Shown in pieces: positions 23,738-40,286 of a stretch of DNA of 64,000 nucleotides (positions are counted from its first letter, which is position 1; every line of letters begins with the position of its first letter). The notes under the pieces were generated by a model. That model was not told where the DNA came from and made no database searches. It saw only the letters and a program-made list of their open reading frames with translations. Position numbers and translations under genes: made by a program. The DNA is from Gemmatimonadota bacterium (lineage in GTDB: Bacteria; Gemmatimonadota; Gemmatimonadetes; Longimicrobiales; Gaopeijiaceae): positions 1 through 64,000 of the forward strand of contig JAPPNN010000063.1 of the NCBI GenBank assembly GCA_028873815.1, read 5' to 3'.

Positions 23738-25765
23738 ATGGCCGTTACGACCGATGGTGTGACGACCACCGCACTTACGCTCCCCGAGGAGCTCATCCTG
23801 ATGCTCCTCAACGAGGAGAACGGCTATTTCCACCAGGTGCCCGGCTGGCGATTGAACTGCGCCGTCGTCGGCGCGGTGCTCGCGGAACTCTCCCTGCTTT
23901 CGCGCATCGACACGGATCTGGAGTCTCTGTTTCTGGTTGACGCGGCGAAGACCGGCGATCCCGCCCTGGACCCCATTCTGGAGGAAATCGCGGGCGAACC
24001 CGTCCAGCACAACGCGCAATACTGGATCGAACGGCTTGCCCACCGTGCCGAATCCGTCATCGACCTGACCCTGGACCGCCTGGTCGACCTGAAGATCCTC
24101 GAATACCATGACGGCGATTTCTGGACGGTGGCTGGTACCGTGCGGCATTCGGACATGTACGGCGATCCGGCGGAGGATACGGCCGGGCAGTTCATCAAGA
24201 CGCGGATCGGCAAGGCGATTTTCACCGACGCGATTCCGGATCCGAGAGACGTGATCGTCATTTGTCTCGTCAATACCTGCGATGTCTTCCGGTTCATGTT
24301 CCAGCTCGATGAAGAAGCCGAGGAGCGCATCGAGTTCATCAGCAAGATGGACCTGATCGGCCGCTCCATTGCCGCCGCGGTTCTCCACAATGTCGCGGCA
24401 CCGCTGTTTCGGCGTTCCCGTTTGACGAAGCACATTCCGCGTGTTCCACTGCGCAAGCTGCTGTCCAATCCCAATGCGCGCATCGGCAATCTTCCCGCGG
24501 TTTTTGCAGATCTGGCCAAACAGTACGGCCCGGTTTACCAGATCCGTCCACCGTTCAAGAAGCCCATGGTCTTCCTTGCCGGAACCCAGATAAACCGCTG
24601 GACGAATCGGCACGGGCGGATGCACCTGAGGACGAGGGACTACTTCGCCGATTTCGAGAAAGTCTACGGCGCGTCCGGCGTCTTGCCCTCTCTGGATGGC
24701 GCGGATCATTTCCGGCTTCGCAAGGCCCTGGCGCCGGCGTACTCGCGCCGGAGACTCGCGGATCAGGTGGGCGACCTTATCCATCATACCCGGAAACATA
24801 TGGCGGAATGGCGGGTCGGTGACACCATCTCCGCGACGAAGATGTGTCGGCGAACGATCAACGCGCAGATTTCGCCAATGTACGTCAGCGTGGATTCGCA
24901 GGACATCTTCGACGACCTGTCGATATACAAGGAACGGGCGCTCAACGTTCACATCACCAAGGCCCTGCCCAGGTTCATGCTGAAGACACCGGGAATGAAA
25001 CGGCGGGCCAAGGCCGTGGACACGCTGCTGGGACGAATCCAGAGCGTTCATACGCCCGCACAGCGAGCCGGCTGCCCGCGCAACCTCGCGGACGACCTGT
25101 TGAGCCTCAACGCGAGCGATCCGCAGTTCGTGCCGGAATCGAACCTGCGTTTCGCGCTGTCCGCAGCGCTGATTGCCAGCGTCTACCTGGGTGACGCGTT
25201 CAGCTTTGCGGTCTACGCGATGGCGTCAAGGCCCGCCGACTACGCGAGGATCCGGGACGAAGCCGCCGCCCTGTTCGGAAACGGCGATCCCGATGGCGAC
25301 GACTTCACGCCATCCGCGTTGGACTTCACCCACCGCTTCCTCATGGAATGTCTGCGGATGTACCCGATTGTGCCGATGTCCATGCGCACCGTCATGAATG
25401 GCTGTGTGGTCGAAGGCTACGAACTGCCGGTGGGCAAGACAATCTTCATCGCGCAGACCGCCACCCATTTCATGGACGACGTCTTCCCCAACCCGTTCAC
25501 ATTCGATACGGACCGCTATCGGGCACCGCGGCATGAGCACAGGGGTCCCGGGTACGCGCCGTACGGCCTGGGCACGCACAGGTGTCTCGGCTTCCGCTGG
25601 ATGGAACTGCAGTTGGCCATCAACATGCTCATGGTCGCGCACTACTTCACGGTCGAGGTGTTCCCGGAGGATTTCAGGTTCCGTTTCAACCCCTTCCCGT
25701 CGATGAAGCCGAGCAAGAAGCTGAAGTTCCGCATCGCGGAGCAGGTGCGGGAGCTGCCGGCCTAG
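23738..25765 (+). CDS. GPP34-domain/cytochrome P450 fusion protein
   Basis: Residues about 12-215 of this 675-residue protein match the GPP34 (GOLPH3-like) fold: LTLPEELILMLLNEENG, GAVLAELSLLSRID and a C-terminal DVIVICLVNTCDVFRFMF. GOLPH3 proteins bind membrane phosphoinositides. Residues about 235-670 are a cytochrome P450. The ExxR motif is E537-R540 (ECLRMYP), and the heme ligand is Cys616 in PYGLGTHRCLGF. The I-helix reads LGDAFS around Asp486-Ala487, lacking the usual Thr after the acid. Start at 23738 rather than an in-frame ATG at 23693 is a judgement; both have purine-rich upstream sequence. An RND transporter follows after 54 nt and a sterol methyltransferase lies beyond it, suggesting a lipid or sterol substrate. 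Confidence 0.85.
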   Translation: MAVTTDGVTTTALTLPEELILMLLNEENGYFHQVPGWRLNCAVVGAVLAELSLLSRIDTDLESLFLVDAAKTGDPALDPILEEIAGEPVQHNAQYWIERLAHRAESVIDLTLDRLVDLKILEYHDGDFWTVAGTVRHSDMYGDPAEDTAGQFIKTRIGKAIFTDAIPDPRDVIVICLVNTCDVFRFMFQLDEEAEERIEFISKMDLIGRSIAAAVLHNVAAPLFRRSRLTKHIPRVPLRKLLSNPNARIGNLPAVFADLAKQYGPVYQIRPPFKKPMVFLAGTQINRWTNRHGRMHLRTRDYFADFEKVYGASGVLPSLDGADHFRLRKALAPAYSRRRLADQVGDLIHHTRKHMAEWRVGDTISATKMCRRTINAQISPMYVSVDSQDIFDDLSIYKERALNVHITKALPRFMLKTPGMKRRAKAVDTLLGRIQSVHTPAQRAGCPRNLADDLLSLNASDPQFVPESNLRFALSAALIASVYLGDAFSFAVYAMASRPADYARIRDEAAALFGNGDPDGDDFTPSALDFTHRFLMECLRMYPIVPMSMRTVMNGCVVEGYELPVGKTIFIAQTATHFMDDVFPNPFTFDTDRYRAPRHEHRGPGYAPYGLGTHRCLGFRWMELQLAINMLMVAHYFTVEVFPEDFRFRFNPFPSMKPSKKLKFRIAEQVRELPA

Positions 25766-25819
25766 CGAGTCCGGCCGAGCGACGACATTCTCGTCCACAC
25801 CCAGGCTGATCCAACAGAA

Positions 25820-28800
25820 ATGAGTCGGAACTCAAGCAGCCACGGCGAGCCTGGCGGCCCCATTGCCTACATGGCGAGCAACGGCGTCGCCGCCAATCTG
25901 CTGATGTTCGGGATCATCGCCGCCGGCCTGGTGTCGCTGACCGGTCTCGAGCAGGAGGGATGGCCCGAGGTACCCTTCAACCAGTTCGAGATCTCCGTGC
26001 CCTTCCCCGGCGCAACTCCCGAGGAGGTGGAGGAGGCCATCGTCGTCAAGATCGAGGATGAGGTCAGGGGACTCGCCGATGTGAAGGCGGTCAGATCCAT
26101 AGCCGCGCCGGGGATGGCGTCCGTCAGGGTTGAAGTCAACTCCGGCACGGACATGGGGGCCAAGAAGGACGAGATCGAGTCGGCGGTCGGGCGTATTCAG
26201 ACGTTTCCGGGCGGAGCCGAACGGTTCCAGATACGCGAAATGACCAACGCCCAGAGCATGATTCGCCTGATCGTCTACGGCGACGTTCCGGAGCGCTCGC
26301 TCAAGGAGCTCGCGTACCGGATCGAAGACGACCTCGCCGCGCTTCCCTCCGTTTCCCAGGTCGTGACCAGCGGAGTGCGCAACTACGAGGTTTCGATCGA
26401 GGTGCCGCTGCAACGTCTCAGGGCTCTCGGCCTGACCCTCACCGATATCGCGAACACGATTCGGCGCAACTCACTGGACTTGTCCGCGGGGAGTATCGAT
26501 ACCCGGGAGTCCCAGGTGCGGGTGCGCACGGTTGGCCAGAGCTACGACCAGCAGGATTTCGAGGAAATCGTGCTCCTCAGCCGCGACGATGGCACGGTCG
26601 TGCGTCTGGGTGATGTCGCCGAAGTGCGTGACGGTTTCCAGGACACGGATCTGATCGTGCGGCATCAGGGCCAGCCCGCGGTCTTCGTCGAGGTTTTCCG
26701 GGCGAAGGGCGAACGGGTCATGAGCGTGGCGCGTGCCGTCAAGGAGCATGTAGCCGACGAGGTGATCCCTTCACTCCCCAACGGCGTGGGCGTCACCATC
26801 TGGAACGACGACTCCACCGCGTTCACGGAGCGGGCCGCCCTCCTCCTCAAGAACGGGGCTCTGGGGCTGCTGCTGGTCTTGATCGCGCTGGGCCTTTTCC
26901 TGGAGGTCCGGCTGGCCTTCTGGGTAGCCGTCGGCCTTGGCGTTGCGGGGATCGGCGCGCTGGCCGCCATGATGGTGTTCGACATCGCAATCCACGCCGT
27001 CTCGCTCTTCTCCTTCGTGCTCGCCATCGGAATCATCGTGGACGATGCGATCGTCGTCGCCGAACATATCCATCTGGAACGAATGCGAGGCACGCCGGGC
27101 GTCGTCGCCGCCATCCGCGGTGCGCGGCGGATCAAGGTGCCGCTGATCTTCGCGGTGCTCACCACCATCGTTGCGTTCGTCCCCCTGCTCTTCATTCCCG
27201 CGGGGTTCGGAGAAGTCTGGAAGGCGCTGCCCATCATCGTGATCGCCATGCTGGTGATCTCACTGATCGAATCGCTGCTGGTGCTGCCCAACCACCTGTC
27301 GCACCGACTGCACGGCCCCGATTGGGCGCCCCGCACGGGCCCGGAACGGTTCGTCGGCCGCATTCAGGGTCGAGTCGACTCCCTGCTGAACAATTTCATC
27401 CAGGGCCCCCTGGATCACGGAATGCGGTTCGCGACCGATCGTCCCGGCATAACGCTCTCCGCAGCTGCCGCCGTCTTCATATTGACCATTTCCCTGCTGC
27501 CGGCGGGCATCGTACCCACCACCTTTGCGACCGAGGTCGAGGGGGACTTCGTAACCGCCACCCTTCAGATGCCGGACGGCACCACCGCGCGGCAGACGGA
27601 CGCGGTGGCACGGGAACTGGAGGCGGCCGGTCACCGGGTCATCCAGCGTCTCTCCGAGGGCCGGCCCTCGGATACGCCTCCGCTTCTGTCCGGCGTTACG
27701 GCCGTCGTTGGTCAGCGGTCACGGATCGAGGTCGGCGGTCTCAACCCCTCCCCCACCCTGAACCCCGAAGCCAATATCGCCACCATCGAGTTCAAGCTCC
27801 TGCCGGCGCAGCAGCGGCGCATCACGTCGGGAGAAGTCATGCAGGCCTGGCGTGAGGAGGTGGGTATCCTGCCCCAGGTGCGCTCGATAACCTTCATGAG
27901 CGAGATCTACACGCTGGGCAACCCGTTGGAAGCCGTGCTTTCCCATCCGGATCCGGAGCGCCTGGTGGTAATCGCATCGTCCGTGGTCAATGAACTCCGT
28001 CGAGTGGGTGGGGTCTTTGACATCCACTCGGATCATACGCCCGGCATCCCGGAAGTTCAGCTGGGACTGTTGCCTGAAGCACGAACCCTCGGCCTGACGC
28101 TCGACGCGCTGGCCCTGCAGACGAGAGCCGCCTTCTTTGGGGCGGAGGCCCTGCGGGTGCAGCGAGGACGCGACGAAGTCCGGGTCTACGTCCGACTGCC
28201 CGAGGAGCAGCGCAGCTCGCTCACCGACATCGAGAGCTACCTGCTCCGTACGGAAAACGGCGCCGAGGTGCCGGTGAGCCGTGTGGCTTCACTCAGTCCG
28301 GGCATGTCGCCGCCGGCCATCCATCGCCAGGACGGCCAGCGCGTCGTCACGGTCACCGCTGATGTGGATTCCAACGTGATTTCCGCCGGGGAAGCCAATG
28401 GCATCCTGGAAAACACCATCCTCGCGGGACTGGTCGATACGGATCCCGGTCTGACCTATACCTTTGGCGGCGAACAGCAGCAGCAGCTCGACTCTCTGGG
28501 CGCGCTCTACCGTGGTTTCGCGATAGCGTTGCTGATCATCTTCGCGCTGCTGGCCATTCCGCTGCGTTCCTATACCAAGCCCTTCATCATCATGGCCATC
28601 ATTCCGTTCGGGTTCGTCGGCGTGATCCTGGGCCACTGGATCCTGGGAGTGGCGGTGAGCGCGGAGTCCTTTGTCGGGATATTCGGCCTGGCGGGCGTGG
28701 TGGTGAACGATTCCCTGGTCATGATGGACTTCATCGATCAGGAACTCGAAGAGGGCCTTCCGGTGCGCGAGGCGATCATCGAGGGAGCCAAGGGCCGTTT

Positions 28801-28999
28801 TCGTCCGATCATGCTTACCTCGCTGACCACCTTCCTCGGCTTCACGCCGCTCATTCTCGAGGACGCCATTCAGGCCCAGTTCTTCGTTCCCTTCTCCGCC
28901 TCGATCGGGTGCGGCATCCTGTTCACCACCGCCATGCTGATGTTCCTGGTGCCCGCGCTGTCCTCGCTGCGCCTGCGCTGGACCACGCGGGGCGGCTAG
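25820..28999 (+). CDS. RND-family efflux transporter (AcrB-like inner-membrane subunit)
   Basis: The 1059-residue protein has the RND layout: a first membrane helix (about 15-35), a large periplasmic loop, a helix bundle, a second loop and a second bundle. The proton-relay Asp-Asp pair is present (IGIIVDDAIVVAEHIHLERM). The C-terminal bundle has GLAGVVVNDSLVMMDFIDQ. RND pumps export hydrophobic compounds using the proton gradient, usually with an adaptor and an outer-membrane channel. Neither partner is adjacent. It follows the GPP34-P450 by 54 nt and converges with the methyltransferase (4-nt overlap of ends). Export of a lipid or sterol made here is a reasonable inference only. Confidence 0.9.
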   Translation: MSRNSSSHGEPGGPIAYMASNGVAANLLMFGIIAAGLVSLTGLEQEGWPEVPFNQFEISVPFPGATPEEVEEAIVVKIEDEVRGLADVKAVRSIAAPGMASVRVEVNSGTDMGAKKDEIESAVGRIQTFPGGAERFQIREMTNAQSMIRLIVYGDVPERSLKELAYRIEDDLAALPSVSQVVTSGVRNYEVSIEVPLQRLRALGLTLTDIANTIRRNSLDLSAGSIDTRESQVRVRTVGQSYDQQDFEEIVLLSRDDGTVVRLGDVAEVRDGFQDTDLIVRHQGQPAVFVEVFRAKGERVMSVARAVKEHVADEVIPSLPNGVGVTIWNDDSTAFTERAALLLKNGALGLLLVLIALGLFLEVRLAFWVAVGLGVAGIGALAAMMVFDIAIHAVSLFSFVLAIGIIVDDAIVVAEHIHLERMRGTPGVVAAIRGARRIKVPLIFAVLTTIVAFVPLLFIPAGFGEVWKALPIIVIAMLVISLIESLLVLPNHLSHRLHGPDWAPRTGPERFVGRIQGRVDSLLNNFIQGPLDHGMRFATDRPGITLSAAAAVFILTISLLPAGIVPTTFATEVEGDFVTATLQMPDGTTARQTDAVARELEAAGHRVIQRLSEGRPSDTPPLLSGVTAVVGQRSRIEVGGLNPSPTLNPEANIATIEFKLLPAQQRRITSGEVMQAWREEVGILPQVRSITFMSEIYTLGNPLEAVLSHPDPERLVVIASSVVNELRRVGGVFDIHSDHTPGIPEVQLGLLPEARTLGLTLDALALQTRAAFFGAEALRVQRGRDEVRVYVRLPEEQRSSLTDIESYLLRTENGAEVPVSRVASLSPGMSPPAIHRQDGQRVVTVTADVDSNVISAGEANGILENTILAGLVDTDPGLTYTFGGEQQQQLDSLGALYRGFAIALLIIFALLAIPLRSYTKPFIIMAIIPFGFVGVILGHWILGVAVSAESFVGIFGLAGVVVNDSLVMMDFIDQELEEGLPVREAIIEGAKGRFRPIMLTSLTTFLGFTPLILEDAIQAQFFVPFSASIGCGILFTTAMLMFLVPALSSLRLRWTTRGG

Positions 29000-30039
29000 C
29001 CGCGAACAGGCTTGCGCGCCAGGAAACAGTAGAGCGGCGAGAAGATCCCGGTTCTCCCGCCGGCGACATAGGCGTCTGCAGTCCGATCCATGAGTTCGAC
29101 AACCTCTGCCGATCCCCTGGGGAACACCCGCAGAAGCTCGGCCAGCCTGGATCCCCAGAAAAACATCTTGCGACCCATGGGAGCCTGGACGAGAGCGGTG
29201 CCGAGCCACCCACGGCGGGCCTCCATGGGCTGATACCACGGCGTGGTCGGACCCGTCTCGTCGACAGCGAGGTCGGCCGCCTCCAGGACCTCGAATCCCG
29301 CGGTTTCGAGGGCCCGGTCCACCTCCCCAAACGTTGCGATATCCTGGAGCGCGATGCCGTGCATTAGTTCCCGCTTGATGGCCCGGTGGCGATCGTCGTC
29401 GGGATTGTACATGTCCGTCATGCACATTTCCTGGCCCCAGAAAAGGGCTCCGGGCTTCAGCACACGTTGGATTTCGGCAAACGCGCGCGCCTTGTCGGGA
29501 GCATGGCAGGTCGATTCGATCGCGTAGCCCCGGTCGAAGGTCGCGTCCGCGATGGAACTCATATTCATGAAGCTGCAAGCGAGACAGTCGATCATGTGAT
29601 CGAGCCCCGCCTCGGCATTCAGCGACCTGGCCTTGCTCAGCTGGATTTCACTGCTGTTGATTCCCAATACCCGGACCCCGGCCTCACGGGCGACGCGGCG
29701 CATTGGACCTCCGATCCCGCACCCGATGTCGGCCACCGTCATGCCTTCACGCAGTTCCAGCTTGGCGATCATCTGCCGCTGGTGCCGGATCTTCGAGTCC
29801 TTCAGGCTCTCGCCGGGCGACAGCGGCGCGAAGTGCAGGGATTCTCCCCAGCCGAAGACCATCAATTCGCTGCAAAGGTCGTAGTATTCCGCTACGGTCC
29901 GGGTATGGTCGTAATCGGCTGCGCCCCCATCCGCGGCCAACGCTCTGTCCGTCCATCCTTCGAAGTCCCGCACGCGACGGCTGACGTTCGTCTTGCCGAA
30001 CGCGGCCTTCAGTCCACCGGATAGTCGACGCAATTGCAT
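28996..30039 (-). CDS. Sterol C-24 methyltransferase-like enzyme (ERG6/SMT family)
   Basis: The 347-residue protein aligns end to end with eukaryotic sterol C-24 methyltransferases from memory of yeast Erg6. It has the sterol-binding motif FGWGESLHFAP (62-72), the SAM site ADIGCGIGGP (103-112), YAIESTCHAP (172-181) and LKPGALFWGQE. A full SMT C-terminal domain ends VAGGRTGIFSPLYCFLARKP. SMTs move a methyl group from S-adenosylmethionine to C24 of the sterol side chain. ATG at 30039 follows AGGA at normal spacing. A P450 and a transporter lie alongside, and a Rieske sterol-like oxygenase 8 kb away. A non-sterol substrate such as a tocopherol-like or other isoprenoid remains possible, but the C-terminal match argues against it. 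Confidence 0.87.
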   Translation of the reverse strand: MQLRRLSGGLKAAFGKTNVSRRVRDFEGWTDRALAADGGAADYDHTRTVAEYYDLCSELMVFGWGESLHFAPLSPGESLKDSKIRHQRQMIAKLELREGMTVADIGCGIGGPMRRVAREAGVRVLGINSSEIQLSKARSLNAEAGLDHMIDCLACSFMNMSSIADATFDRGYAIESTCHAPDKARAFAEIQRVLKPGALFWGQEMCMTDMYNPDDDRHRAIKRELMHGIALQDIATFGEVDRALETAGFEVLEAADLAVDETGPTTPWYQPMEARRGWLGTALVQAPMGRKMFFWGSRLAELLRVFPRGSAEVVELMDRTADAYVAGGRTGIFSPLYCFLARKPVRG

Positions 30040-30103
30040 GGCAGATCCTGGCGAGGCGCTGGCGGTGGTCCGACCAGGCGCATTCGCATGTGCGTGTCGA
30101 TGA

Positions 30104-32716
30104 TCATTGAAAACCTCTCGGGGTGAGCCTCAACACGGCGGTCACGCGGCCCGCCGCGCCGGCAAGGCTGACCCGGATGGCGCCGCCCGAGCGGCTCGAC
30201 ACGGTCACGTGGGCATCGGCCGTAACCGCGTCGACCGGCGTGCCGAAGAGACGGACGTCGTAGTCACGACCCGCCGTACCCTCGATCGTCAGCAGCCATC
30301 CGTCGCCGTCGGCGGTCAGGTCGATGATGCGCAGGCCCGTGCTCCGCTGGCCCGGCTGCAAGTCGATGCGCGGGGGTGCGACGGCGAGGCCACCGCGCCA
30401 GGTCACCGTGAACACGCCGTCGGCGGACTCGGTCAGCGTCTCATTTGTCGCCCCCACCGGCACATCCGGCACGAAATCGATGTCCACCGGCGGTCCGTCC
30501 GTGCCGACGATCACGCGCTGCTCTCCGCCGGTTCCGGTCCAGCGCCGCGTGATGTCCACATCGACCGTCGCATCACCAACCCGCAATCCGCGCACCTTCG
30601 CCCCGTCCCAATCCGCCGGCAGCTGCGGAGCCAGCCGTGCCCGGCCGTTGGGCGCGTCCGGTTCCCACCCGAAGACGCCGCGGAGCAGCGGCGTCACCAG
30701 CATCGAGGTCGCGAAGAACTGGTGCGGCACCGTCTGATCGAGGGGCTGGTAGAAGCTTCCCGAAAAGAGCTCGCCGTGGCGGCCGAGGCTCCAGTCGAAG
30801 GTCATCTGCTTGACCGCGTCCATCAGGTGGAATCCCGCCCACGGGCGCCGGTAGCGGTACTGCGCCCACGACGCGAAGCCGGTCACAAAGGGCCACACGG
30901 TGCCCATGTTGTACTGGAGCGGGTCGTAAAGCTCGCTCTCGGTCGAAAGCATGTGCGCGCCCCAGTCCGACGACACGCGGTCGCCCGCGATCAGCGCCAG
31001 CGTCGACCTGGCCCGCTCATCCTCGAGCAGTCCGAAGGCCGCCGCCGTGGCCGGCCACACGGTCAGGTTGTCGTTGGTGCCGCCGCCGGCCAGGATGCCG
31101 AACGCGTGGTGGCCCACGTCGGGGCGCCAGTACGCGTTGTTCAGCGTCGCGCGCGCGGTTGGCGCGATCCGCGCGGCCTGCGCCGCCAGCTCCCCGTCGC
31201 CCAGATGCTCCGCCATCACCAGCGTGCCCTCCAGCGCGGCCACCCACACGCCCGCCAGGTAGATGTCCTGGTGCAGTGCCTCGCCCAGCCCGCCGACCTC
31301 GACCGCGCCCAGCCCGCCCACAGTGTTCTCGATGATCCCGTCGCCGTCGGTCTCCGCGCTCAGGCACCACGCCCACGCGCGCGTGTACGCCGGCCACAGC
31401 TCGCGCAGCAGCTCGTCGTCGCCGCTGGCCAGCCAATACTGGTACACCGCGAACATCCAGTGAGGCGTCGTGTCGGCGTGGTAGTAGGCGTAGGGGTAGG
31501 TGTCGAACCAGTCGATGTGAGCCGCGGCCTGCGAGATCTCGTGGGTGATCTTGCCGTCGCCGCGCTGGTACTTGGCGAGAAACGCGAGTTCCTCGGCCAC
31601 CAGTTCCCACTGGCCCAGAGCGTCCATCGCGTAGGTGTTCATCATGGCGTCGCCGCCGAAGAACCAGCCGAAGCCCGGTCGCCCGCCGTCGCCCGACAGT
31701 CCCCAGCCGGCGACGAAGCCGCACCCCAGGTCCGGGTTGCAGACGCGCTGTTCCTCCAGGTTGATCTTGGCCCACTCGAGCGCCAGGTCGAGCAGCGGAT
31801 CGGGCGTCTCGATCGAGGCGGTATTCGCCAGCACGGAGTCCGCCCACGCACGGGTGTCCCGATAAAGCATCTCCGCGCCCGCAATCAGCCGTCCGTACCG
31901 CGCAAACACCGTATCGCGCGGCGCCGTCCCCGCCGCCACCGCGATCGGAATGAACTCCGCCCGCGCGCGCTCCGGATCCACCGGGATCACCATCGTGCGC
32001 GGCGCCTCGCCCAGCTGGTGCGCCGGATGCTCGACCGAGTTGGTCGCCCACGGCGAGCCCACCACGGCGTTGCGCGTCTGCAGACTCTCGGAGAGCACGA
32101 AGACGCGCCGGTCCCCGTCCCAGTACGCGTATTGCCCGCCCAGCGACCCCGGCCACATGTAGTTGAGCACCGGGTGGAACTCGGCGACGATCTCCATCGG
32201 CTCCGGGCTGTCGACCTCGAGCAGCACCAGGAGGCCGGTCGCGGCGGTGTCCCTGGGCGCGAGGATGTGCTGCCGCACCTGAAACGCCGCGTGGCTGTAA
32301 GTGATCGTCGCCATCTCGGGCCGCACATGCAGCGTGCGCGCCACCTGCCCGCCGGGAATCGGGGCACCGTAACCGGATGTCGAGAAAGCGAGGCGGAAGC
32401 CGCTGCCCACCTTGAGCGGATGCACCCACAGCTCGGCCTCGCCCGTTTCCAGCCCGAGCCAGGCCGCACGGGGGCCGGTCACGCCGAGGTATTCGCCGGG
32501 ACGCACGGGGCCGGTCAGCTCGATGGGCGACGGCGCGATCACAAAGCGCGGGACAGACAGCGCGGCAAGGTCGCCGGGCGAGGGGTCGGGGAGGCGCTGG
32601 GCCGCAGTGGGGTTGGGGTGGGGGGCGAGTAGCGCGAAGATGGCCGCCGCGGTCAGGATCCGGGCCAGCGCCGGGGTGGGGCGGGCGGCGGGACGGGGGG
32701 AGGGGGGAGATCTCAT
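30104..32716 (-). CDS. Secreted glycogen-debranching-like six-hairpin glycosidase
   Basis: The 870-residue protein has a signal sequence (LTAAAIFALLAPHPNPTAAQ region at about 15-38), a beta-rich N-terminal domain (about 50-280) and an (alpha/alpha)6 barrel. The barrel shows FGWFFGGDAMMNTYAMDAL, TPHWMFAVYQYWLASGDDEL and DPLQYNMGTVWPFVTGF. A C-terminal beta-sandwich follows. It resembles amylo-alpha-1,6-glucosidase/GDE_C and related GH15/63-like hydrolases; the exact substrate is unknown. Start at 32716 was chosen because it begins just before the signal sequence; an ATG at 32818 would add 34 Arg/Gly-rich residues. Export implies action on extracellular glucan or glycan. Confidence 0.8.
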   Translation of the reverse strand: MRSPPSPRPAARPTPALARILTAAAIFALLAPHPNPTAAQRLPDPSPGDLAALSVPRFVIAPSPIELTGPVRPGEYLGVTGPRAAWLGLETGEAELWVHPLKVGSGFRLAFSTSGYGAPIPGGQVARTLHVRPEMATITYSHAAFQVRQHILAPRDTAATGLLVLLEVDSPEPMEIVAEFHPVLNYMWPGSLGGQYAYWDGDRRVFVLSESLQTRNAVVGSPWATNSVEHPAHQLGEAPRTMVIPVDPERARAEFIPIAVAAGTAPRDTVFARYGRLIAGAEMLYRDTRAWADSVLANTASIETPDPLLDLALEWAKINLEEQRVCNPDLGCGFVAGWGLSGDGGRPGFGWFFGGDAMMNTYAMDALGQWELVAEELAFLAKYQRGDGKITHEISQAAAHIDWFDTYPYAYYHADTTPHWMFAVYQYWLASGDDELLRELWPAYTRAWAWCLSAETDGDGIIENTVGGLGAVEVGGLGEALHQDIYLAGVWVAALEGTLVMAEHLGDGELAAQAARIAPTARATLNNAYWRPDVGHHAFGILAGGGTNDNLTVWPATAAAFGLLEDERARSTLALIAGDRVSSDWGAHMLSTESELYDPLQYNMGTVWPFVTGFASWAQYRYRRPWAGFHLMDAVKQMTFDWSLGRHGELFSGSFYQPLDQTVPHQFFATSMLVTPLLRGVFGWEPDAPNGRARLAPQLPADWDGAKVRGLRVGDATVDVDITRRWTGTGGEQRVIVGTDGPPVDIDFVPDVPVGATNETLTESADGVFTVTWRGGLAVAPPRIDLQPGQRSTGLRIIDLTADGDGWLLTIEGTAGRDYDVRLFGTPVDAVTADAHVTVSSRSGGAIRVSLAGAAGRVTAVLRLTPRGFQ

Positions 32717-33053: not shown

Positions 33054-34271
33054 CTACCGACGCAACCGCCAAACCCGCGGATGCTGCACGTCGAATTCGC
33101 TGGTCCACACCCCGAGGATCTCGTCCTCGCCGACCTCCGTGACCCTGAAGCTTGCGGGGATCTCCACGCTTCCAAGCCAGGCGCCGTCGGAGGCAAGCAC
33201 CACCCAGTGCTCCGGTCCGCCGCGTTCGCTCTGTCCCAGAAACGGCCGCAGCCAGACCGCACCGGTCGGGTCGACCAGCATGTCTGCGTAGGCCGGGCGG
33301 GTCTCCGGCGACGGCATGTCTTCGATCGCCTGGACAAAGAAAGGCGGCAGTGACGTGACCCCCGGGGGAAGCGGAATGTCGAGACGGGCGTTTCGTTCGA
33401 CCGCGACCTGGTCGGGGGTCAGAGCCAGCGGGTAGTCCGGGATGCGGAGAATGCGGACGGTTTCGCCGCTCGCGCTGTTCGCCTCGATCTGCATCTCGTC
33501 GGAGCTGCCTGTGAAGATTCGTCCGTCGTGCACATCCAGCACCGACTCCTTCCCGAAGAGCGGAGGCCCGCTCAGCATATCGGCCACGTACATCTCGGAG
33601 CCCGGCGTCCCCCCGATACTGTCCCGCCGACCTCCCTCCAGGTCATACGCCAGCAGGACCTCCGGCGGCCGGATAACACCGTACACCTCGGGGTAGTGGG
33701 TCACCGCCCGCACGATCATCGTGCCGCTGCCCAGGTAGCGAATGTCCGTGACATCGTCGTCGAGCTGCACGGTGCGAATGTGCTGCAGACCGGAACCGAA
33801 GAGTGTCACCCGGGACCGGATATCCCGCGCCAGCAGCGAATCGCCCACGACTTCCACCTGCTGCAGGTTCGCGAACTCGCCCGGTCCCTCGCCGTGCCCG
33901 CCGGCGGCGCCGACGAAGCTGCCGTCGGCCGAGAACGTCCTGATCTCGTTCGACCCACGGTTGACCACGACGATGCCCCCATCCGGCAGCCGCTTGACGT
34001 CCCGCACCTGGTAGAAGTTGTGCGGATCGCCGGTGCCTGACTCCGCCAGGTCGAGCAGGGGTTCCGGGTCGACGCGCCAGTGCGCCGAATCGCCCCAGGC
34101 GGGCCCGAAGGACTCGACGATCGTGATGCCGGTGCTGTCGCGCTGCACCGTCAGCGGGGGACCGCCGTCGGAGGGAGCGCAGGCGGGGAGCACGCACGCG
34201 ATCAAGGCGCAGGTGCCGACTCGCGTCAACCGGGTGGAGAGCGGGTTGCATGCGGCAAGCACGGATGTCAT
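33054..34271 (-). CDS. Six-bladed beta-propeller lipoprotein (copy 2)
   Basis: The 405-residue protein has a signal peptide ending in a lipobox-like LPAC, then repeated propeller blades with motifs such as LPDGGIVVVNRGSNEIRTF, FSADGSFVGAAGGHGEGPGEF and DPTGAVWLRPF. It belongs to the NHL/6-bladed beta-propeller lipoproteins common in Gemmatimonadota and Bacteroidota. These probably act as extracellular binding or scaffold proteins; no enzymatic residues are evident. Its ATG overlaps the stop of the upstream paralogue (ATGA) and is preceded by GGAAAGGGA. It is clearly a tandem duplicate of the neighbour. Confidence 0.82.
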   Translation of the reverse strand: MTSVLAACNPLSTRLTRVGTCALIACVLPACAPSDGGPPLTVQRDSTGITIVESFGPAWGDSAHWRVDPEPLLDLAESGTGDPHNFYQVRDVKRLPDGGIVVVNRGSNEIRTFSADGSFVGAAGGHGEGPGEFANLQQVEVVGDSLLARDIRSRVTLFGSGLQHIRTVQLDDDVTDIRYLGSGTMIVRAVTHYPEVYGVIRPPEVLLAYDLEGGRRDSIGGTPGSEMYVADMLSGPPLFGKESVLDVHDGRIFTGSSDEMQIEANSASGETVRILRIPDYPLALTPDQVAVERNARLDIPLPPGVTSLPPFFVQAIEDMPSPETRPAYADMLVDPTGAVWLRPFLGQSERGGPEHWVVLASDGAWLGSVEIPASFRVTEVGEDEILGVWTSEFDVQHPRVWRLRR

Positions 34272-35503
34272 TCGCCGTCCCTTTCCAGGCGCAGCACCCG
34301 CGGATGCTGCACGTCCAGTTCGTCGTGCCAGACGCCCAGCACCTCGTCGATGCCGATGTCCCACACGTGAAAATCCTCGGGTACCTCCACGCTGCCGAGC
34401 CACCGGCCGCCGGGATCCAGCACCAGCCAGGACTCGGGTCCGCCGCCCTCGCTCATCCCGCGGAAGGGCCGCAGCCAGATCGCGCCCGTGGGATCGACGA
34501 TCATGTCGGCGTAGGCGGGCCGGGTAGTGGGCAGCGGCATGTCCTCGATCAGCTGGCGAAACCGCGGGGGCATCGGCCGGCCCTGAGGAGTGGTTGTGTC
34601 CAGGCGGGCATCGCGCTCGGCGACGGCCCGCGCCTCGCTCACCGTCAGGGCGTACGGCGCCAGGCGCAGGATCCTCACCGTGTCGCCGGTCGCGGTCATC
34701 TCCTCCACCTGCATCCGGTCGGAGGATCCGGTGAAGATGCGGTCGCCGTGGGTGTCGACGACGGCCTTCTTCTGAAAAAGAGGCACGATGCGCATGTCGC
34801 CGACGAAGTAATCCTCGTAGCCCGGAGTCCAGCCGATGCTGTCGCCGCCGCTCCCGTCGAGCCGGTACGTGCGGAGGGTCTCGGGGACGCGGGTCAGGCG
34901 GCCGAGTTCGGGGATCGGGGGAACGATGCGCGCGACGAGGCGTCCGGCTTCGATGGCGTGGACGGCGTGTGTCCTGCGGGCCAGACGCGTCTCGCGGATC
35001 AGGACCGGACCGGGGCCGAAGACGCTGATCACACCGTCCCGGTCGACCACCAGGATCGTGTCGCCCGCCACCTCCAGCTGCTGCGCGTTGATGAATTCGC
35101 CGGGCCCCTGCCCCTGCCTGGATCCGCCGAACGAGCCTGCGAAGCCGCCGTCGGCCGAGAACTGCCGGATCTCGTCGGAGCCCGCGTTCAGGACGACGAG
35201 GGACCCGTCCGGGAGCCGCCTCATGCCGCGCACCTGGTAGAAGCTGTGCGCGTCGCCGGTGCCGGATTCGGCCAGGTCGAGGACCGGTTCGGGGTCGATG
35301 CGCCACGCGTTCGGATCCGCCGAACCCGTCTGCGCGGGATTCCCCCAGGCGGGCCGGACGGACTCGACGATCTTGATGCCGGCGCTGTCGCGCTGGATCG
35401 ATGGCGGGGGACCGTCGCCGCCGGGGGTGCAGGCGTGTAGGATTACGCCCGCGGTGGCCAACAGGAGGCGTTTGCCCCTGCCGGACAGTTGGGGCCGCCC
35501 CAC
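34268..35503 (-). CDS. Six-bladed beta-propeller lipoprotein (copy 1)
   Basis: This paralogue of the next gene shares the opening (IQRDSAGIKIVESVRPAWG), the DPEPVLDLAESGTGDAHSFY block and the ends DPTGAIWLRPF and LGVWHDELDVQHPR. The GTG at 35503 gives 411 residues with a signal segment and lipobox-like LHAC at about 27. An ATG at 35554 would put the N-terminus inside the AT-rich palindromic promoter shared with the divergent antitoxin gene, so I consider it unlikely. Function is unknown beyond an envelope-anchored propeller. It is translationally coupled to the second copy by an ATGA overlap. Confidence 0.78.
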   Translation of the reverse strand: MGRPQLSGRGKRLLLATAGVILHACTPGGDGPPPSIQRDSAGIKIVESVRPAWGNPAQTGSADPNAWRIDPEPVLDLAESGTGDAHSFYQVRGMRRLPDGSLVVLNAGSDEIRQFSADGGFAGSFGGSRQGQGPGEFINAQQLEVAGDTILVVDRDGVISVFGPGPVLIRETRLARRTHAVHAIEAGRLVARIVPPIPELGRLTRVPETLRTYRLDGSGGDSIGWTPGYEDYFVGDMRIVPLFQKKAVVDTHGDRIFTGSSDRMQVEEMTATGDTVRILRLAPYALTVSEARAVAERDARLDTTTPQGRPMPPRFRQLIEDMPLPTTRPAYADMIVDPTGAIWLRPFRGMSEGGGPESWLVLDPGGRWLGSVEVPEDFHVWDIGIDEVLGVWHDELDVQHPRVLRLERDGE

Positions 35504-35509
35504 GACGCG

Positions 35510-35550
35510 TTGGCGCTGGGATATGCTACTATTATAATAGCAAAATGCTA
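35510..35550 (+). promoter_or_regulatory. Promoter/operator of the VapBC-like pair
   Basis: TTGGCG (35510-35515) and TATAAT (35533-35538) are spaced by 17 bp, a near-consensus sigma-70 promoter for the antitoxin gene at 35578. The -10 lies in the perfect palindrome CTATTATAATAG (35529-35540). ATGCTA occurs directly on both sides (35523-35528 and 35545-35550). The arrangement suits autoregulation by the ribbon-helix-helix antitoxin. The palindrome also offers a -10 for the divergent propeller gene, though without a good -35. Confidence 0.6.
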
Positions 35551-35577
35551 TCATTGGGCGCTTGAAGGAGGTGGAGG

Positions 35578-35868
35578 ATGGCGGACGTGGCCATCCGGGG
35601 AGTCCCGGACGAGTTGCACCTGGAACTTAAGGCGGCGGCGGAGAGAAATCACCGCAGCCTCAACGGAGAGATCGTCGCGAGGCTGGCGGCCTCGGTCCGC
35701 ACGGCGCCGGTCGATGCCATCACCCTCCTGGAGCGCATCCAGCGGCGGCACCGGACGCTCGGCCCGATCGAGCTGGGCGAGACGGCGCTGCGCGGCCTTC
35801 AGGACGAAGGCCGAATCACACCGGGACGGAAGGACGCGCGCAGCACCCCGTGGACGGGCGGCGAATGA
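35578..35868 (+). CDS. FitA/Arc-type ribbon-helix-helix antitoxin
   Basis: The 96-residue protein begins MADVAIRGVPDELHLELKAAAERNHRSLNGEIVARL, a typical FitA/Arc ribbon-helix-helix DNA-binding domain. The C-terminal half should wrap around and neutralise the toxin. GGAGGTGGAGG precedes the ATG. Its stop overlaps the toxin start (ATGA). In this family the antitoxin represses its own promoter alone and with the toxin, and a palindromic promoter lies just upstream. The toxin next to it looks degenerate, so this may now act as a plain repressor. Confidence 0.85.
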   Translation: MADVAIRGVPDELHLELKAAAERNHRSLNGEIVARLAASVRTAPVDAITLLERIQRRHRTLGPIELGETALRGLQDEGRITPGRKDARSTPWTGGE

Positions 35869-36260
35869 TCGCCGTCGACACGAGCGTGATTGCGCGGCTG
35901 GTCGTGGGCGGCCGCGACGGCGCGGAGGCGGCCCGGCTCTTTCGGCAGGATCCGGAGTGGGCCGGCCCCGCGAGCCTGATGAGCGGGGTGCGCCGCGTGT
36001 TGATCGGGCTGGTGCGCGGACGGTCGATCACGGTCGACCAGGCGAAAGCCATGTGCGACGACGCGGCCCTGGCGCTGGGCGGGAGGATCGTGACCGTCCC
36101 GTCGGCGCGGGTGCTCGATGCCGCGCTGGAGTGCGGGCTGTCGGCCGAGCAAGCCGAGTTCGTGGTGGTGGCGCGGGAACTGGGCGTGCCGCTGGCGACG
36201 GGCGACCGGGCGGTTCTGAGCGCGGCGCGGGACGTGGCGATTTGGGTGGGCACGGGATAG
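35865..36260 (+). CDS. VapC-like PIN-domain toxin with missing acidic residues
   Basis: PIN toxins are Mg2+-dependent RNases that use a cluster of four acidic residues. The 131-residue protein starts MIAVDTSVIARL with the first Asp, and the last acidic site is in LATGDRAVL. At the second site, where relatives usually read ...SE(F/L)RNVL, this protein has LMSGVRRVL (Gly for Glu). At the third, relatives read SAYDxEFV and this has SAEQAEFV (Gln for Asp). Two of the four acids therefore appear lost, so it is likely inactive as a nuclease. The start overlaps the antitoxin stop. Confidence 0.8.
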   Translation: MIAVDTSVIARLVVGGRDGAEAARLFRQDPEWAGPASLMSGVRRVLIGLVRGRSITVDQAKAMCDDAALALGGRIVTVPSARVLDAALECGLSAEQAEFVVVARELGVPLATGDRAVLSAARDVAIWVGTG

Positions 36261-36280
36261 GGGTTTGCGTATTGTCTATC

Positions 36281-36318
36281 GCAACTGTTGCAATCATATA
36301 ATCATAATCGTTGCAATC
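36281..36318 (+). promoter_or_regulatory. AT-rich repeat/promoter region before the ATPase gene
   Basis: GCAACTGTTGC (36281-36291) is an 11-nt inverted repeat. GTTGCAATC occurs twice (36287-36295 and 36310-36318). TATAAT is at 36297-36302 with TTGTCT at 36272-36277 (19-bp spacing). This is a plausible promoter with repeat-type binding sites for the ATPase gene starting at 36377. Confidence 0.4.
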
Positions 36319-36376
36319 GTACGAATGACCCATTAGACTGTATCCTCGGCCGCTTCGCAAAACCGGGAACTCGTCA

Positions 36377-37726
36377 ATGCTCCGCTACCCCGACATCCCG
36401 TCACGTCATTTCGTTCGCGGGCCCCCCTTGGCGGTTCGCGAGGGGGGGGCGTCAAGAGAATACCGGCCGCGTGTAGCGGACACCGAGCTCAAGCAACGCC
36501 TGGGCCGGTCGGGAGCTATCCTGATCGAGGGGCCGAGGGCCTGCGGCAAGACGGCGACGGCGAGGCAGATTGCGGCGAGCGCGGTCATGTTGGACGCCCA
36601 TCCCTCCGCTCGCCGCGCGGCCGCCGTCGATCCCGGGTTTTTGCTCCTGGGCGAGACGCCCCGCCTGATTGACGAGTGGCAGGTCGTCCCGGAAATCTGG
36701 AACCACGTGCGCCACGCCGTTGACGATCGTCGGGGCCGTGGCCACTTCATCCTGACCGGGTCCGCCGTCCCGCCGGACGACATCACCCGGCATACCGGCG
36801 CGGGGCGCATCGGCCGGCTCCGCCTCCGTCCCATGTCGCTCTTCGAATTGCAGCGTTCGACCGGCCAGATCTCTCTCTCGCGGTTGCTGGCCGGTGTCCC
36901 GGTACCGACTTCGTTTGCGGAGTTGACCGTACCGGAACTGGCGGAACTCGTGTGCACCGGCGGCTGGCCGGGACACCTGGGATCGTCGGAACAGGACCCC
37001 GCGCGCTCGGCCGCGGATGCGATGGCGGAGAATCGGGACTATGTGGGCGAGATCTGCCGCGCCGACATCCGCCGGGTGGACGGGTCGGGACGGGATCCGG
37101 CCAGGGTCGGGCGGTTCCTGCAATCGCTGGGCCGCAACGTCGCCACATGCGCCAGCATGGCCACACTGGCCCGGGATGCCGGCGGACCGGACCAGCACCT
37201 GAACAAGTACACGGCCAGCTCGTACATGACCGCGCTGGAGCGGCTCATGATCGTGGAGAACCAGCCGCCTTGGGCGCCGCACCTCCGTTCCCGGTCACGG
37301 CTCCGAACTTCCGCAAAGCGTCACTTCGTCGACCCCTCTCTTGCCGTCGCGGCGCTGAGTGCCAGCACGGATCACGTACTGAACGACTTCGAGTGGTTCG
37401 GCTTCCTGTTCGAGTCGATGGTCATCCGGGACCTTCGCATCTACGCCCAGGCCACCGGGGCGACGGTACACCACTACCGAGACAACACGGGGTTGGAGGT
37501 GGACGCCGTGGTAGACGCCGGGCCGGGGCGGTGGGCGGCGTTCGAAATCAAGCTCGGTGCAAGCCGGGTCGACGAGGGGGCAAGGACGCTGCTGAAGTTT
37601 GCCGACCGGGTGGATGTGGAGCGGTGCGGAGAACCCGCAGCCCTCGGAGTAATCGTGGGAAGCGGGTATGGGTACGCGAGACCGGATGGTGTGGGTGTCA
37701 TTCCGGTAGGGGCGCTGGGAATTTGA
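36377..37726 (+). CDS. COG1373-type AAA ATPase with DUF4143
   Basis: The 449-residue protein has Walker A GPRACGKT (52-59), Walker B-like RLIDEWQ (about 95-101) and a sensor stretch HFILTGSAVP. The C-terminal DUF4143 nuclease-like domain includes FEWFGFLFESMVIRDL and HHYRDNTGLEVDAVV. This family is widespread, often mobile, and its function is unsettled. The first 28 residues are Pro/Arg/Gly-rich and unlike the family, whose domain starts around EYRPRVADTELKQ. I see no closer start codon. It converges with the Rieske gene (ends 1 nt apart). Confidence 0.83.
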   Translation: MLRYPDIPSRHFVRGPPLAVREGGASREYRPRVADTELKQRLGRSGAILIEGPRACGKTATARQIAASAVMLDAHPSARRAAAVDPGFLLLGETPRLIDEWQVVPEIWNHVRHAVDDRRGRGHFILTGSAVPPDDITRHTGAGRIGRLRLRPMSLFELQRSTGQISLSRLLAGVPVPTSFAELTVPELAELVCTGGWPGHLGSSEQDPARSAADAMAENRDYVGEICRADIRRVDGSGRDPARVGRFLQSLGRNVATCASMATLARDAGGPDQHLNKYTASSYMTALERLMIVENQPPWAPHLRSRSRLRTSAKRHFVDPSLAVAALSASTDHVLNDFEWFGFLFESMVIRDLRIYAQATGATVHHYRDNTGLEVDAVVDAGPGRWAAFEIKLGASRVDEGARTLLKFADRVDVERCGEPAALGVIVGSGYGYARPDGVGVIPVGALGI

Positions 37727-37727
37727 G

Positions 37728-38813
37728 CTAGCGCACTTCCGAGTAGAACTGGCGGCAGTACAGGCGGTATTTCCCGATGGGGCCGTCTGCGCGGCACAGC
37801 CGGGGTGGCGACCGGAACCGTTTCCGCTCCCAGATGACCACGTCCTGCATCACGTAGCGCTTCTCCTCCTTGAGGAGGATGTGGCTCATCACCCCGTGAC
37901 GCAGCCTCATGGGCAGAAAGCCAAGACCCGCGATGAACCGCCCCGGCTGGCGGATTTCGCGCGCCTGCGTGACCAGCGTCAGCTCGATGAACTCGCCGTC
38001 GACGGGTGTGGCGAGGACCCACAGCCTCGCGTCCATGCCGATCGACTTCTCGTGGACCTCGACGTAGGAATAGCCCAGGCCATGCACGTGGGTGACCGCC
38101 GAAACGTCGGACCCGAAGTCGATCAGGCCCGCCACTCTGCGCACGCTCTTGAAGTCGAAAGTGCTCTTCAGATACGCGCCGTCGATCGACAGCGGACCGG
38201 TCGGCTCCACGCTCTCGTAGCCGTGTGTGTACTCCAGATGCTCCACGTCCACGGAGTTTTCCGTCGTCTCCTGGGGATGCCCGCGGAACCGCAGGGTAAC
38301 CGATCGCAGCGGACTCCACTGGGCGCCGACAGGTGGCTCATCCGGCAGGTGCCACTGCGCTGGCCGCCCGCCGAGGCCCCACCACGCGAAGACCATGCCG
38401 AGGATCTCGGCGGTCTCGTACACCTTCAGCCTGGCGGCTTTGGGGGCCGGGGCGTTCGGAGTCGCGACGCACCGTCCGCTGGCATTGAAGGTGAATCCGT
38501 GAAATGGGCAGACCAGGCAGCCGTCTCGAACCACGCCGCCGACCGTCGGCCCCATGTGCGAGCCCAGGTGCGGACAGAAGGCGTCGGCTACGCAGACGCG
38601 GCCGTCCTCGTCGGCCCAGACCACGATCTCCTCACCGAGCCAGGTCTTCTCGATCAGCTTTTGCCGCTCGATGGATTCGCGGGTCGCGACGAGGTACCAG
38701 CCCTCGGGGAAGGGGGGAAGCCGGTCCGTTGGCGTCTTCGAAGGTCTCCGGTCCCGGCCGGGCTCATGTCCGGTCCGCGCTGGAGGTGCGGCCAATGAGC
38801 TGATTGAGGCCAT
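37728..38813 (-). CDS. Rieske non-heme iron oxygenase, KshA/Neverland (sterol desaturase/oxygenase) type
   Basis: The 361-residue protein has a Rieske [2Fe-2S] site (Cys80, His82, Cys102, His105: CPHLGSH and CPFHGF) and a mononuclear iron site with N-x2-D-x2-H-x4-H spacing (Asn186, Asp189, His192, His197). The order and the ENSVDVEHLEYTHG segment resemble sterol and steroid oxygenases such as cholesterol 7-desaturase Neverland/DAF-36, KshA and the bacterial sterol demethylase SdmA. ATG at 38813 follows GGAAAGGA at good spacing. No reductase partner is adjacent. A FAD protein lies 87 nt upstream on the same strand. A role in sterol ring modification is inferred. Confidence 0.85.
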   Translation of the reverse strand: MASISSLAAPPARTGHEPGRDRRPSKTPTDRLPPFPEGWYLVATRESIERQKLIEKTWLGEEIVVWADEDGRVCVADAFCPHLGSHMGPTVGGVVRDGCLVCPFHGFTFNASGRCVATPNAPAPKAARLKVYETAEILGMVFAWWGLGGRPAQWHLPDEPPVGAQWSPLRSVTLRFRGHPQETTENSVDVEHLEYTHGYESVEPTGPLSIDGAYLKSTFDFKSVRRVAGLIDFGSDVSAVTHVHGLGYSYVEVHEKSIGMDARLWVLATPVDGEFIELTLVTQAREIRQPGRFIAGLGFLPMRLRHGVMSHILLKEEKRYVMQDVVIWERKRFRSPPRLCRADGPIGKYRLYCRQFYSEVR

Positions 38814-38859
38814 GCGAGTCGTCCTTTCCGCTCTACGCACCTGGGAAGCGACTGGACGC

Positions 38860-38892
38860 GACAATATCAGACAAAAAATGTCCGAAATTGTC
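38860..38892 (-). promoter_or_regulatory. Nested palindromic operator upstream of the Rieske gene
   Basis: Outer arms GACAAT (38860-38865) and ATTGTC (38887-38892) enclose inner arms GACA (38870-38873) and TGTC (38879-38882) with a 5-nt A-rich centre. The site lies in the 87-nt gap before the Rieske start. Its symmetry resembles TetR-type operators. No regulator gene is nearby. Confidence 0.5.
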
Positions 38893-38900
38893 ACATCTCG

Positions 38901-40286
38901 TCAAGCGGACGCCTTCCTGAAGCGCCAGCCGTACATGAGGCTCCCGTAATAGTTGAACATACGCCGCGCCTCGGGATCGTCGAAGGGGTAGTCCGCGCCC
39001 AGCTGCCGTGCGGCGGCCAGCCCGGTGACGAGGCAGGTTTCCTGGCTGTTGATCAGCGTATGGGCGCCGCAGTGCCACGTTCGCCTTCCGCCCTGAATGA
39101 ACCGGAACAGCGGGACGAGCCAAGCGACATGGCGCACGTCGTGAACGATGTGCTGAAACCACCACTTCCTGATGACCTTCTCTTCGTCGATCCGGCTGAT
39201 CGGGTTGTAGGTCACCAGGCAGGGCCTGTCCGACCGATTGGCCCATGGCTGCTGGTTGTGCATGATGTACGTGATTTCGTAGTTGTCCGGCCTGGCGCCG
39301 TATTGCTCGATGTGATTGCTGCGCGTCTGCAGCGGCTTCACCTCGTTGTCCGGAAGCACCGATGCATCGGAGTGCACGACGGTGTGGTTGTGGAGCTCGC
39401 TCTCATAGCGTATGGACGAGAGGATGTAGCGCTCCATGAAGGTAGGATTGTCGAGCATCATCAGCGTCTGGTTTGCGTTGCAGGCGAAGATGACCTCGTC
39501 GAAGGTCTCGCGGACGCCGTTCTCGTCCTCGACCACGACCTCGGACGCGCGGCGATACACCTTTCGGACCGGCCGGTTGAGGTGAATCCTGTCCCGGAAG
39601 CCGGCGGACAGGCTCTCGTAGATCCGCCGGGTTCCGCCGTCCCACGTCTGCATCGGCGTCGCGACCTCGATGTCGAAGAATTCGAGATACCTCGAGAAGA
39701 GCGAGGCGGGCATGTCGAACACGTTGGTCGCCATCAGGAAGTTGACGAACATCGGCTTCAGGATCTTGTACCTGAATTCCCCGCCCAGGCCGGCCAGGTT
39801 GAGCACCGTGCCCATGCTGATGTAGTTGAACGGGTTCAGCGCGTTCAGGAGCCTCGAGCGGGCGCGGGTCAGTCCGCCAAACCGGTGCAGCCGCTTCAGG
39901 ATCCGCTGGAACCTGGCGATCTCGGCCTCGAGCTGTCGCCGGATCTCGGAGTCGAAGTCGTGCGCGTACACCTGGCCTCGGTACCTGACGCTGTAGCTGA
40001 ACCGGGTGTCGATCAGTTCGATCCCGTGGTCCTGCATCAGCAGCAGGATGTGGTGATACACCGACGGGATGCACGCGGTAACCGAGATGTCGAACGGAAT
40101 CGAGCTGCCGTCGTCTTGCGGCATGTCGACGGTGATCGCGTTACCGCCAATCTGCTCGTTGGCTTCGAAGAGCCGGAAGTCGAATCGGTCCGGGTGCCGG
40201 TGCAGCGCCCACGCGGCCCCCAGGCCCGACACGCCGCCGCCGATGATCGCGACTCGCCGCTTTTTCCGGTTTCGGTTTGTTGACAT
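38901..40286 (-). CDS. FAD-dependent amine-oxidase-like protein (COG2907 type)
   Basis: The 461-residue protein begins with a dinucleotide-binding motif (VAIIGGGVSGLGAAWAL) and LFEANEQIGGNA, and ends with the FAD-contacting segment (GLAAARQLGADYPFDD). It resembles the COG2907 flavoproteins often found with lipid-modifying methyltransferases. The reaction is unknown; a desaturase, dehydrogenase or sterol-oxidising role is possible given the neighbouring Rieske oxygenase. Starts at 40286 (used) and 40313 are both possible; neither has a clear Shine-Dalgarno. A palindrome and an ATPase pseudogene lie upstream in the opposite direction. Confidence 0.8.
   Translation of the reverse strand: MSTNRNRKKRRVAIIGGGVSGLGAAWALHRHPDRFDFRLFEANEQIGGNAITVDMPQDDGSSIPFDISVTACIPSVYHHILLLMQDHGIELIDTRFSYSVRYRGQVYAHDFDSEIRRQLEAEIARFQRILKRLHRFGGLTRARSRLLNALNPFNYISMGTVLNLAGLGGEFRYKILKPMFVNFLMATNVFDMPASLFSRYLEFFDIEVATPMQTWDGGTRRIYESLSAGFRDRIHLNRPVRKVYRRASEVVVEDENGVRETFDEVIFACNANQTLMMLDNPTFMERYILSSIRYESELHNHTVVHSDASVLPDNEVKPLQTRSNHIEQYGARPDNYEITYIMHNQQPWANRSDRPCLVTYNPISRIDEEKVIRKWWFQHIVHDVRHVAWLVPLFRFIQGGRRTWHCGAHTLINSQETCLVTGLAAARQLGADYPFDDPEARRMFNYYGSLMYGWRFRKASA

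Follow-up and report, generated by a model that had tools for sequence, protein, structure and literature searches.

The window is 64 kb of DNA, the first part of a 141-kb contig from a draft genome of 4.29 Mb and 86% completeness. A sequence-only reading had placed in it a sterol methyltransferase (SMT), a P450, a Rieske oxygenase, a flavoprotein and an RND transporter, and all five genes were found there as intact open reading frames, each scoring above the Pfam cut-off for its own family. The forward strand encodes a GPP34-P450 fusion (positions 23738-25765) followed by an AcrB-type RND transporter (25820-28999; ACR_tran, 518 bits). On the reverse strand lie a clade-A SMT homologue of 347 amino acids (28996-30039; Methyltransf_11, 60 bits; Sterol_MT_C, 51 bits), a KshA-like Rieske oxygenase (37728-38894; Rieske, 65 bits; KshA_C, 71 bits) and an FAD oxidoreductase of the amine-oxidase fold (38901-40313; Amino_oxidase, 61 bits). 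A single operon of all five is ruled out by the four genes that separate the SMT from the Rieske gene, encoding a GH116-like protein, two beta-propeller-type proteins and an AAA_14/DUF4143 ATPase. In three sibling loci (L170, L172 and L173) the Rieske gene adjoins the P450 gene, and the one-contig genome G058 carries the P450, RND and GH116 genes consecutively, with no SMT. The RND gene is inverted in G058, which made a DNA alignment of this SMT-free site useless; it was discarded, and gene order alone was used. The ERG24, CYP51 and oxidosqualene cyclase (OSC) trio of the sterol biosynthesis cluster was not found among the scanned window genes. TAG or other stops inside homologues proved, in the cases inspected, to be natural gene ends.

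What had been read as a P450 is one in its C-terminal part (residues 250-661; p450, 99 bits), but the first ~215 residues form a GPP34 domain (residues 15-215; 101 bits) that the earlier reading had missed. The predicted model of the fusion has a pLDDT of 84.9. CYP184A1 ranks first both by single sequence and by fold, whereas the CYP51s are nearest by family profile only (E 5e-34) and are distant; an NCBIfam scan of the window P450 returned other P450s, all far below cut-off. Fold searches with the P450 and the SMT gave general relatives only.

The Rieske protein had been called KshA/SdmA-like. Its Rieske motif, mononuclear-iron ligands and KshA_C domain, together with KshA as the best PDB match of its profile, uphold the first half of that name; the second half hardly holds, as the protein reaches 37 bits against an NCBIfam equivalog cut-off of 600 for the 4beta-methylsterol monooxygenase SdmA. 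Cys107/His109/Cys129/His132 and Asp216/His219/His224 are invariant in 21 Rieske sequences, and we take the latter Asp and His residues to be the iron ligands. The annotated GTG start of the gene is probably too early, with homologues aligning from about residue 59. The best PDB match of the FAD protein is LkcE (109 bits), and two queries for an adaptor or outer-membrane partner of the RND transporter found none in the window.

Clade-A sterol methyltransferases

The window SMT aligns over its full length with yeast ERG6 (33.6% identity over 348 positions, E 8e-69). With its class I SAM methyltransferase domain and Sterol_MT_C domain, this confirms the claim of a full-length protein of the SMT/ERG6 family. 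Its nearest named relative, at 93% identity, lies in a MAG titled Gemmatimonadetes bacterium. Matches at E 1e-20 or better occur in 32 of 298 Gemmatimonadota genomes; 25 of these, the clade-A genomes, carry a copy at 66-100% identity (two are fragments), six have only a 39-46% copy and one a 32% copy. In G280, which is among the 25, an additional copy is 40% identical, and no Gemmatimonadota copy falls between 46 and 66%. Among 217 sampled Actinomycetota genomes, clade A was found in the centre genome only. A wider search, in which alignment A1 was run against species genomes, yielded at least 563 confirmed candidates, and the best 80 of these (hereafter the best 80 loci) were analyzed. All 80 are from MAGs, with SMTs 64-93% identical to that of the window. 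Submitters' titles put 72 of them in 11 phyla and eight in none, though such titles are not always right: the contigs of two loci titled Gammaproteobacteria (L032 and L033) agree in length and in the place of the match with contigs from G086 and G280, two genomes of the same family as the window. The label prefixes of the best 80 loci (SB06xx in 23, RHO in 19, jk18x in 12, others in fewer) presumably mark sponge MAG projects, which they resemble, and suggest a sponge origin of the 80. The bacterium carrying the window is related to sponge-type symbionts. Sponges studied by Robbins et al. 2021 include R. odorabile, C. matthewsi, I. ramosa and A. aerophoba (PMC8163846).

Four residues, Met60, Leu68, Trp201 and Met205 in window numbering, are present in all 81 clade-A sequences (the window and the best 80 of at least 563), and Gln203 in 80 of the 81; selecting the 80 by similarity to the window SMT favours such uniformity. 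In the ten comparison SMTs the position of Met60 is always Tyr, and they have Phe (9) or Gln (1) for Leu68, Ala (7), Gly (2) or Thr (1) for Trp201, Tyr (9) or Cys (1) for Gln203, and Trp (8) or Tyr (2) for Met205. The signature was present in all 14 Gemmatimonadota clade-A copies checked (14 of the 25, from a list made with a plain E-value limit) and missing from the six distant Gemmatimonadota copies. YEYGWGxSFHF, which is present in the yeast sequence and which we take to be the sterol-binding motif of SMTs, reads MVFGWGESLHF in the window protein. The two substitutions, Met for Tyr and Leu for Phe, are fixed in 81 of 81 sequences, and clade A is therefore a divergent rather than a canonical member of the SMTs. 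In a quick tree the 81 sequences form one group (SH-aLRT 100), apart from the six distant Gemmatimonadota SMTs, three OSC-adjacent SMTs and yeast. The phylogenetic check proposed with the sequence-only reading is thus answered in part: clade A is a distinct group within a tree that holds yeast as its one eukaryotic SMT and that contains neither demonstrated bacterial SMTs nor outside enzymes. By its sequence, clade A is a separate, tight SMT subfamily with fixed changes in SMT motifs.

The same module could nonetheless contain an ordinary C-24 methyltransferase, possibly of the clades assayed by Brown et al. 2023, its motif changes being neutral or tuning the product. Most of the active-site motif is kept in clade A (His69, Phe70, Glu77, His86, GCGxGGP and Glu175). 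In addition, 23 of the 24 bacterial SMTs tested by Brown et al. fall in two clades, and the limits used there (E 1e-50 and 30% identity to yeast) would admit the window SMT (PMC10070321). Set against this are the four positions fixed for residues that none of the 10 comparison SMTs has, and two islands where clade A neighbours a canonical SMT, a pairing that hints at separate functions. We give the C-24 alternative somewhat less than an even chance. It answers a separate question from the catabolism and hopanoid alternatives weighed below, and its likelihood is not to be summed with theirs.

Partner genes and links to sterol synthesis

Within flanks of at most 10 kb around each clade-A SMT, the best 80 of at least 563 loci hold the GPP34-P450 in 54 cases (in 30 of them at most 500 bp from the SMT), an RND-superfamily transporter in 50, the Rieske gene in 49 and the FAD gene in 28. 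In the 43 of these loci that extend at least 9 kb on both sides, all four partners are present in 17 and none in 10. The FAD protein is the most conserved partner, with a mean pairwise identity of 80% across 26 of the best 80 loci. The families also travel together among the 298 Gemmatimonadota genomes, where the Rieske family is found in 25 of 25 clade-A genomes versus 13 of 273 others, the P450 family in 24 of 25 versus 17 of 273 and the FAD family in 22 of 25 versus 7 of 273 (Fisher p < 1e-22, uncorrected for kinship). The occurrence of these three families in genomes lacking clade A argues that methylation is an add-on. Correlations of gene distance between partners are modest (rho 0.25-0.39). 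The transporters at the best 80 loci are of three kinds, in 18, 19 and 13 loci; the window's AcrB kind is the one beside the SMT in 18 of the 80, at 300 bits or more. One representative of each of the other two kinds matched MMPL and Patched/sterol-sensing models above cut-off, and HpnN below it. The Patched/sterol-sensing matches may reflect general MMPL kinship.

Members of the squalene-cyclase family were sought in clade-A genomes by submitting 50 of the best 80 loci, of which 49 genomes were searched, a set that partly overlaps the 298 Gemmatimonadota. A match was found in 30 of the 49. Motifs were read in 24 cyclases, which gave 22 of the hopene type (DxDD) and two of the OSC type; in five further genomes the second cyclase is an OSC. 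In all, seven of the 49 genomes carry an OSC (61-100% identity to one of the seven), and G326 additionally has an untyped cyclase fragment. The prevalence of DxDD cyclases would be expected if the substrate were another isoprenoid lipid, such as a hopanoid, rather than a sterol. The SMT model, which is most like small-molecule O-methyltransferases and terpene C-methyltransferases, and the sub-threshold HpnN matches of the alternative transporters point the same way. However, 19 of the 49 genomes, and the window's own, have no cyclase-family match at all, and clade A is linked to SE-OSC operons, leaving the hopanoid alternative only a slim chance.

These links were seen in the 20 kb around the seven OSCs, where we found a canonical SMT in three cases, the window's FAD family (75-81% identity) in three and the GPP34-P450 (49-51%) in two. 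On one Nitrospirales contig, covered by the overlapping loci L058 and L142, an island within 17 kb (about 25.3-42.0 kb of the contig) holds the GPP34-P450, clade-A SMT, KshA-like Rieske and FAD genes, then a canonical SMT, followed by SdmB-like, SdmA-like, ERG4/ERG24, P450 and SE-OSC genes. The SdmB-like protein reaches 303 bits and the SdmA-like one 415, both below the cut-off of 600; the SdmA-like protein is distinct from the window's KshA-like Rieske oxygenase. On a second contig (L068 and L146), the clade-A SMT and GPP34-P450 lie about 12 kb from an OSC. These islands tie every kind of module member except the transporter to sterol synthesis. They also bear on the idea that the Rieske, P450 and FAD enzymes initiate degradation of host sterols as a carbon source, the SMT being incidental. 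Such catabolism would suit the KshA-like Rieske protein, the sponge-only KshA clusters and sponge steroid degraders described by Holert et al. 2018 (PMC5790920), and the families in 7 and 6 of the best 80 loci that by eye resemble acyl-CoA synthetase and acyl-CoA dehydrogenase. We nevertheless regard it as improbable: in the Nitrospirales island the four genes adjoin a biosynthetic operon, and no breakdown genes were recognised among the top 40 families common to many loci.

Most clade-A genomes have no OSC. Close homologues of an SE-OSC query (64-70%) occur in five of the 298 Gemmatimonadota genomes, and in G162 only the epoxidase part is matched, by a 48% fragment. Of the five, G045 is the only one among the 25 clade-A Gemmatimonadota genomes, and the 24 without an OSC are 86-99% complete. 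Of three Gemmatimonadota OSC loci inspected, a single one includes an SMT next to the OSC, a distant one at 43%, and the P450, Rieske and FAD genes are absent from all three. Profile searches of the window's own draft genome gave no match to SQHop_cyclase_C, SE or SQS_PSY. A squalene/phytoene synthase is present in 36 of 38 genomes tested, mostly kin, so we dropped its lack here as evidence; the missing SQS_PSY is probably a draft gap, and in a draft 86% complete single absences mean little. A PF00432 search of the same genome was uninformative, as its control also gave no match. The earlier statement that OSC and squalene epoxidase are lacking thus held in the window and, by profile and SE-OSC searches, in the draft genome. 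It had been left open whether sterols are supplied or made by genes elsewhere in the genome; the draft showed no OSC or SE for the second route, and the absence of OSC from most clade-A genomes makes import from a source outside the cell most likely.

Proposed role and relation to known systems

We consider it probable that the locus is a sterol-tailoring module that acts on supplied sterols and has no ring synthesis of its own. The ring would be built outside the bacterium and supplied by the host or by neighbours. The clade-A SMT, to judge by its family, would methylate the sterol side chain once or more, with SAM as donor. Family and linkage suggest that the GPP34-P450 and the KshA-like Rieske protein insert oxygen into the ring or side chain, that the FAD enzyme acts on a bond by oxidation or isomerisation, and that an RND-superfamily transporter carries the sterol across the envelope; the GPP34 part perhaps anchors the P450 to the membrane in which the sterol lies. 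Methylation is on this reading an addition to a P450/Rieske/FAD set, and the module genes appear to have passed between phyla, as a whole or piecemeal. It is also conceivable, if unlikely, that clade A is a side-chain SMT of new regiochemistry, for example a 26-SMT, whose substrates would be sterols that a canonical SMT or the host has previously alkylated at C-24. If so, it could be the 26-SMT behind the 26-methyl sterols of sponges (aplysterol type; 26-methylstigmastane biomarker), the canonical and clade-A SMTs of the Nitrospirales island would form a two-step alkylation pathway, and the window's OSC-free module would be a symbiont route to remodel host sterols.

Earlier publications already cover bacterial SMTs and the sterol operons of sponge symbionts. 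Brown et al. 2023 described active bacterial SMTs, some of them of sponge symbionts, and noted that enzymes methylating sterols at C-26 are still undiscovered and matter for the debate over sponge biomarkers (PMC10070321). Kelly et al. 2022 reported such operons, termed clusters of steroid genes (CSG), in Ircinia symbionts of many phyla (PMC9531527). The main text of the Palauibacterales paper contains neither "sterol" nor "cytochrome P450" (PMC10469786), and a literature search, with subscription journals and bioRxiv outside its reach, found no paper on the GPP34-P450 fusion or on an OSC-free module. Clade A is a clearly delimited group of SMTs, present in MAGs whose titles name 11 phyla (among the best 80 of at least 563 loci), with recurring, putatively sterol-oxidising partners and mostly without ring synthesis. 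It may offer a short list of candidates for C-26 sterol methylation, and the module a specific picture of how symbiotic bacteria might remodel sterols made by others.

The sterol 14alpha-demethylases (CYP51) are the nearest solved relatives of the window P450 by family profile; unlike them, the window P450 carries the GPP34 fusion, and the usual acid/His-Thr motif of helix I was not seen in its alignment. With the 3-ketosteroid 9alpha-hydroxylase KshA, the window Rieske protein shares the KshA_C domain and its best PDB profile matches, although the single-sequence match (80 bits) covers mainly residues 61-224. An RND-superfamily transporter beside sterol genes recalls the sterol transporter BstA and the hopanoid transporter HpnN (PMC10942540). 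The two other transporter kinds weakly resemble BstA, whereas the window's is AcrB-type and has no significant BstA match (E 0.019). As in the CSG of Kelly et al., sterol genes here occur in many symbiont phyla with signs of transfer, and the SMT often at the flank of the CSG is a further likeness; the CSG core of ERG24, CYP51 and OSC, in contrast, is not next to the window SMT, and no OSC was found in its draft genome (PMC9531527). The SMTs of Brown et al. have mostly been shown to methylate C-24, and the available text does not mention the GPP34-P450, KshA-like Rieske and FAD partners (PMC10070321). Like clade A, they are SMT-family enzymes of uncultured bacteria that include sponge symbionts, and one, from Chlamydiae, lies in a MAG without other sterol genes (PMC10070321).

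The GPP34-P450 family

The fusion of an N-terminal GPP34 domain to a C-terminal cytochrome P450 (23738-25765, + strand) belongs to a multi-copy family in these bacteria. The same draft genome encodes a second such fusion, about 33% identical (C26; L190:8518-10944), and in genome G248 (L186) a paralogous fusion adjoins the FAD gene. When the family was aligned, the usual acid/His-Thr pair was found to be absent from helix I (window positions ~25160-25200, fusion residues 476-490), its place being taken by an invariant Ala480 and Tyr483. This replacement hints at an unusual oxygen chemistry for the GPP34-P450.

Neighboring genes and loci without partners

The gene set falls into two parts, P450/RND/SMT (23738-30039) and Rieske/FAD (37728-40313). 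Among the genes that lie between them is one for an AAA_14/DUF4143 ATPase (36377-37726), which was not found at the corresponding place in 15 sibling loci when compared at 1e-15. A beta-propeller protein resembling the Vgb streptogramin lyase lies at 40939-42093; a resistance-gene label for it is unfounded, the Vgb match scoring 78 bits against a family cut-off of 600.

No partner gene (GPP34-P450, Rieske, FAD or RND) was present near the clade-A sterol methyltransferase (SMT) in 10 loci flanked on each side by 9 kb or more of sequence (L064, L066, L067, L071, L075, L082, L083, L088, L090 and L107), where the enzyme may work alone. Two records titled Gammaproteobacteria, L032 and L033, appear to belong to the window's own Gemmatimonadota family; given this conflict, phylum counts should not rest on MAG titles alone.

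Transporter arrangement

Five loci with an AcrB-type transporter (L069, L080, L085, L100 and L110) also encode, near the SMT, an outer-membrane efflux protein together with an HlyD adaptor, and therefore some modules include a full tripartite pump. In contrast to these five, the window shows the RND part only, two queries having turned up neither an adaptor nor an outer-membrane partner there.
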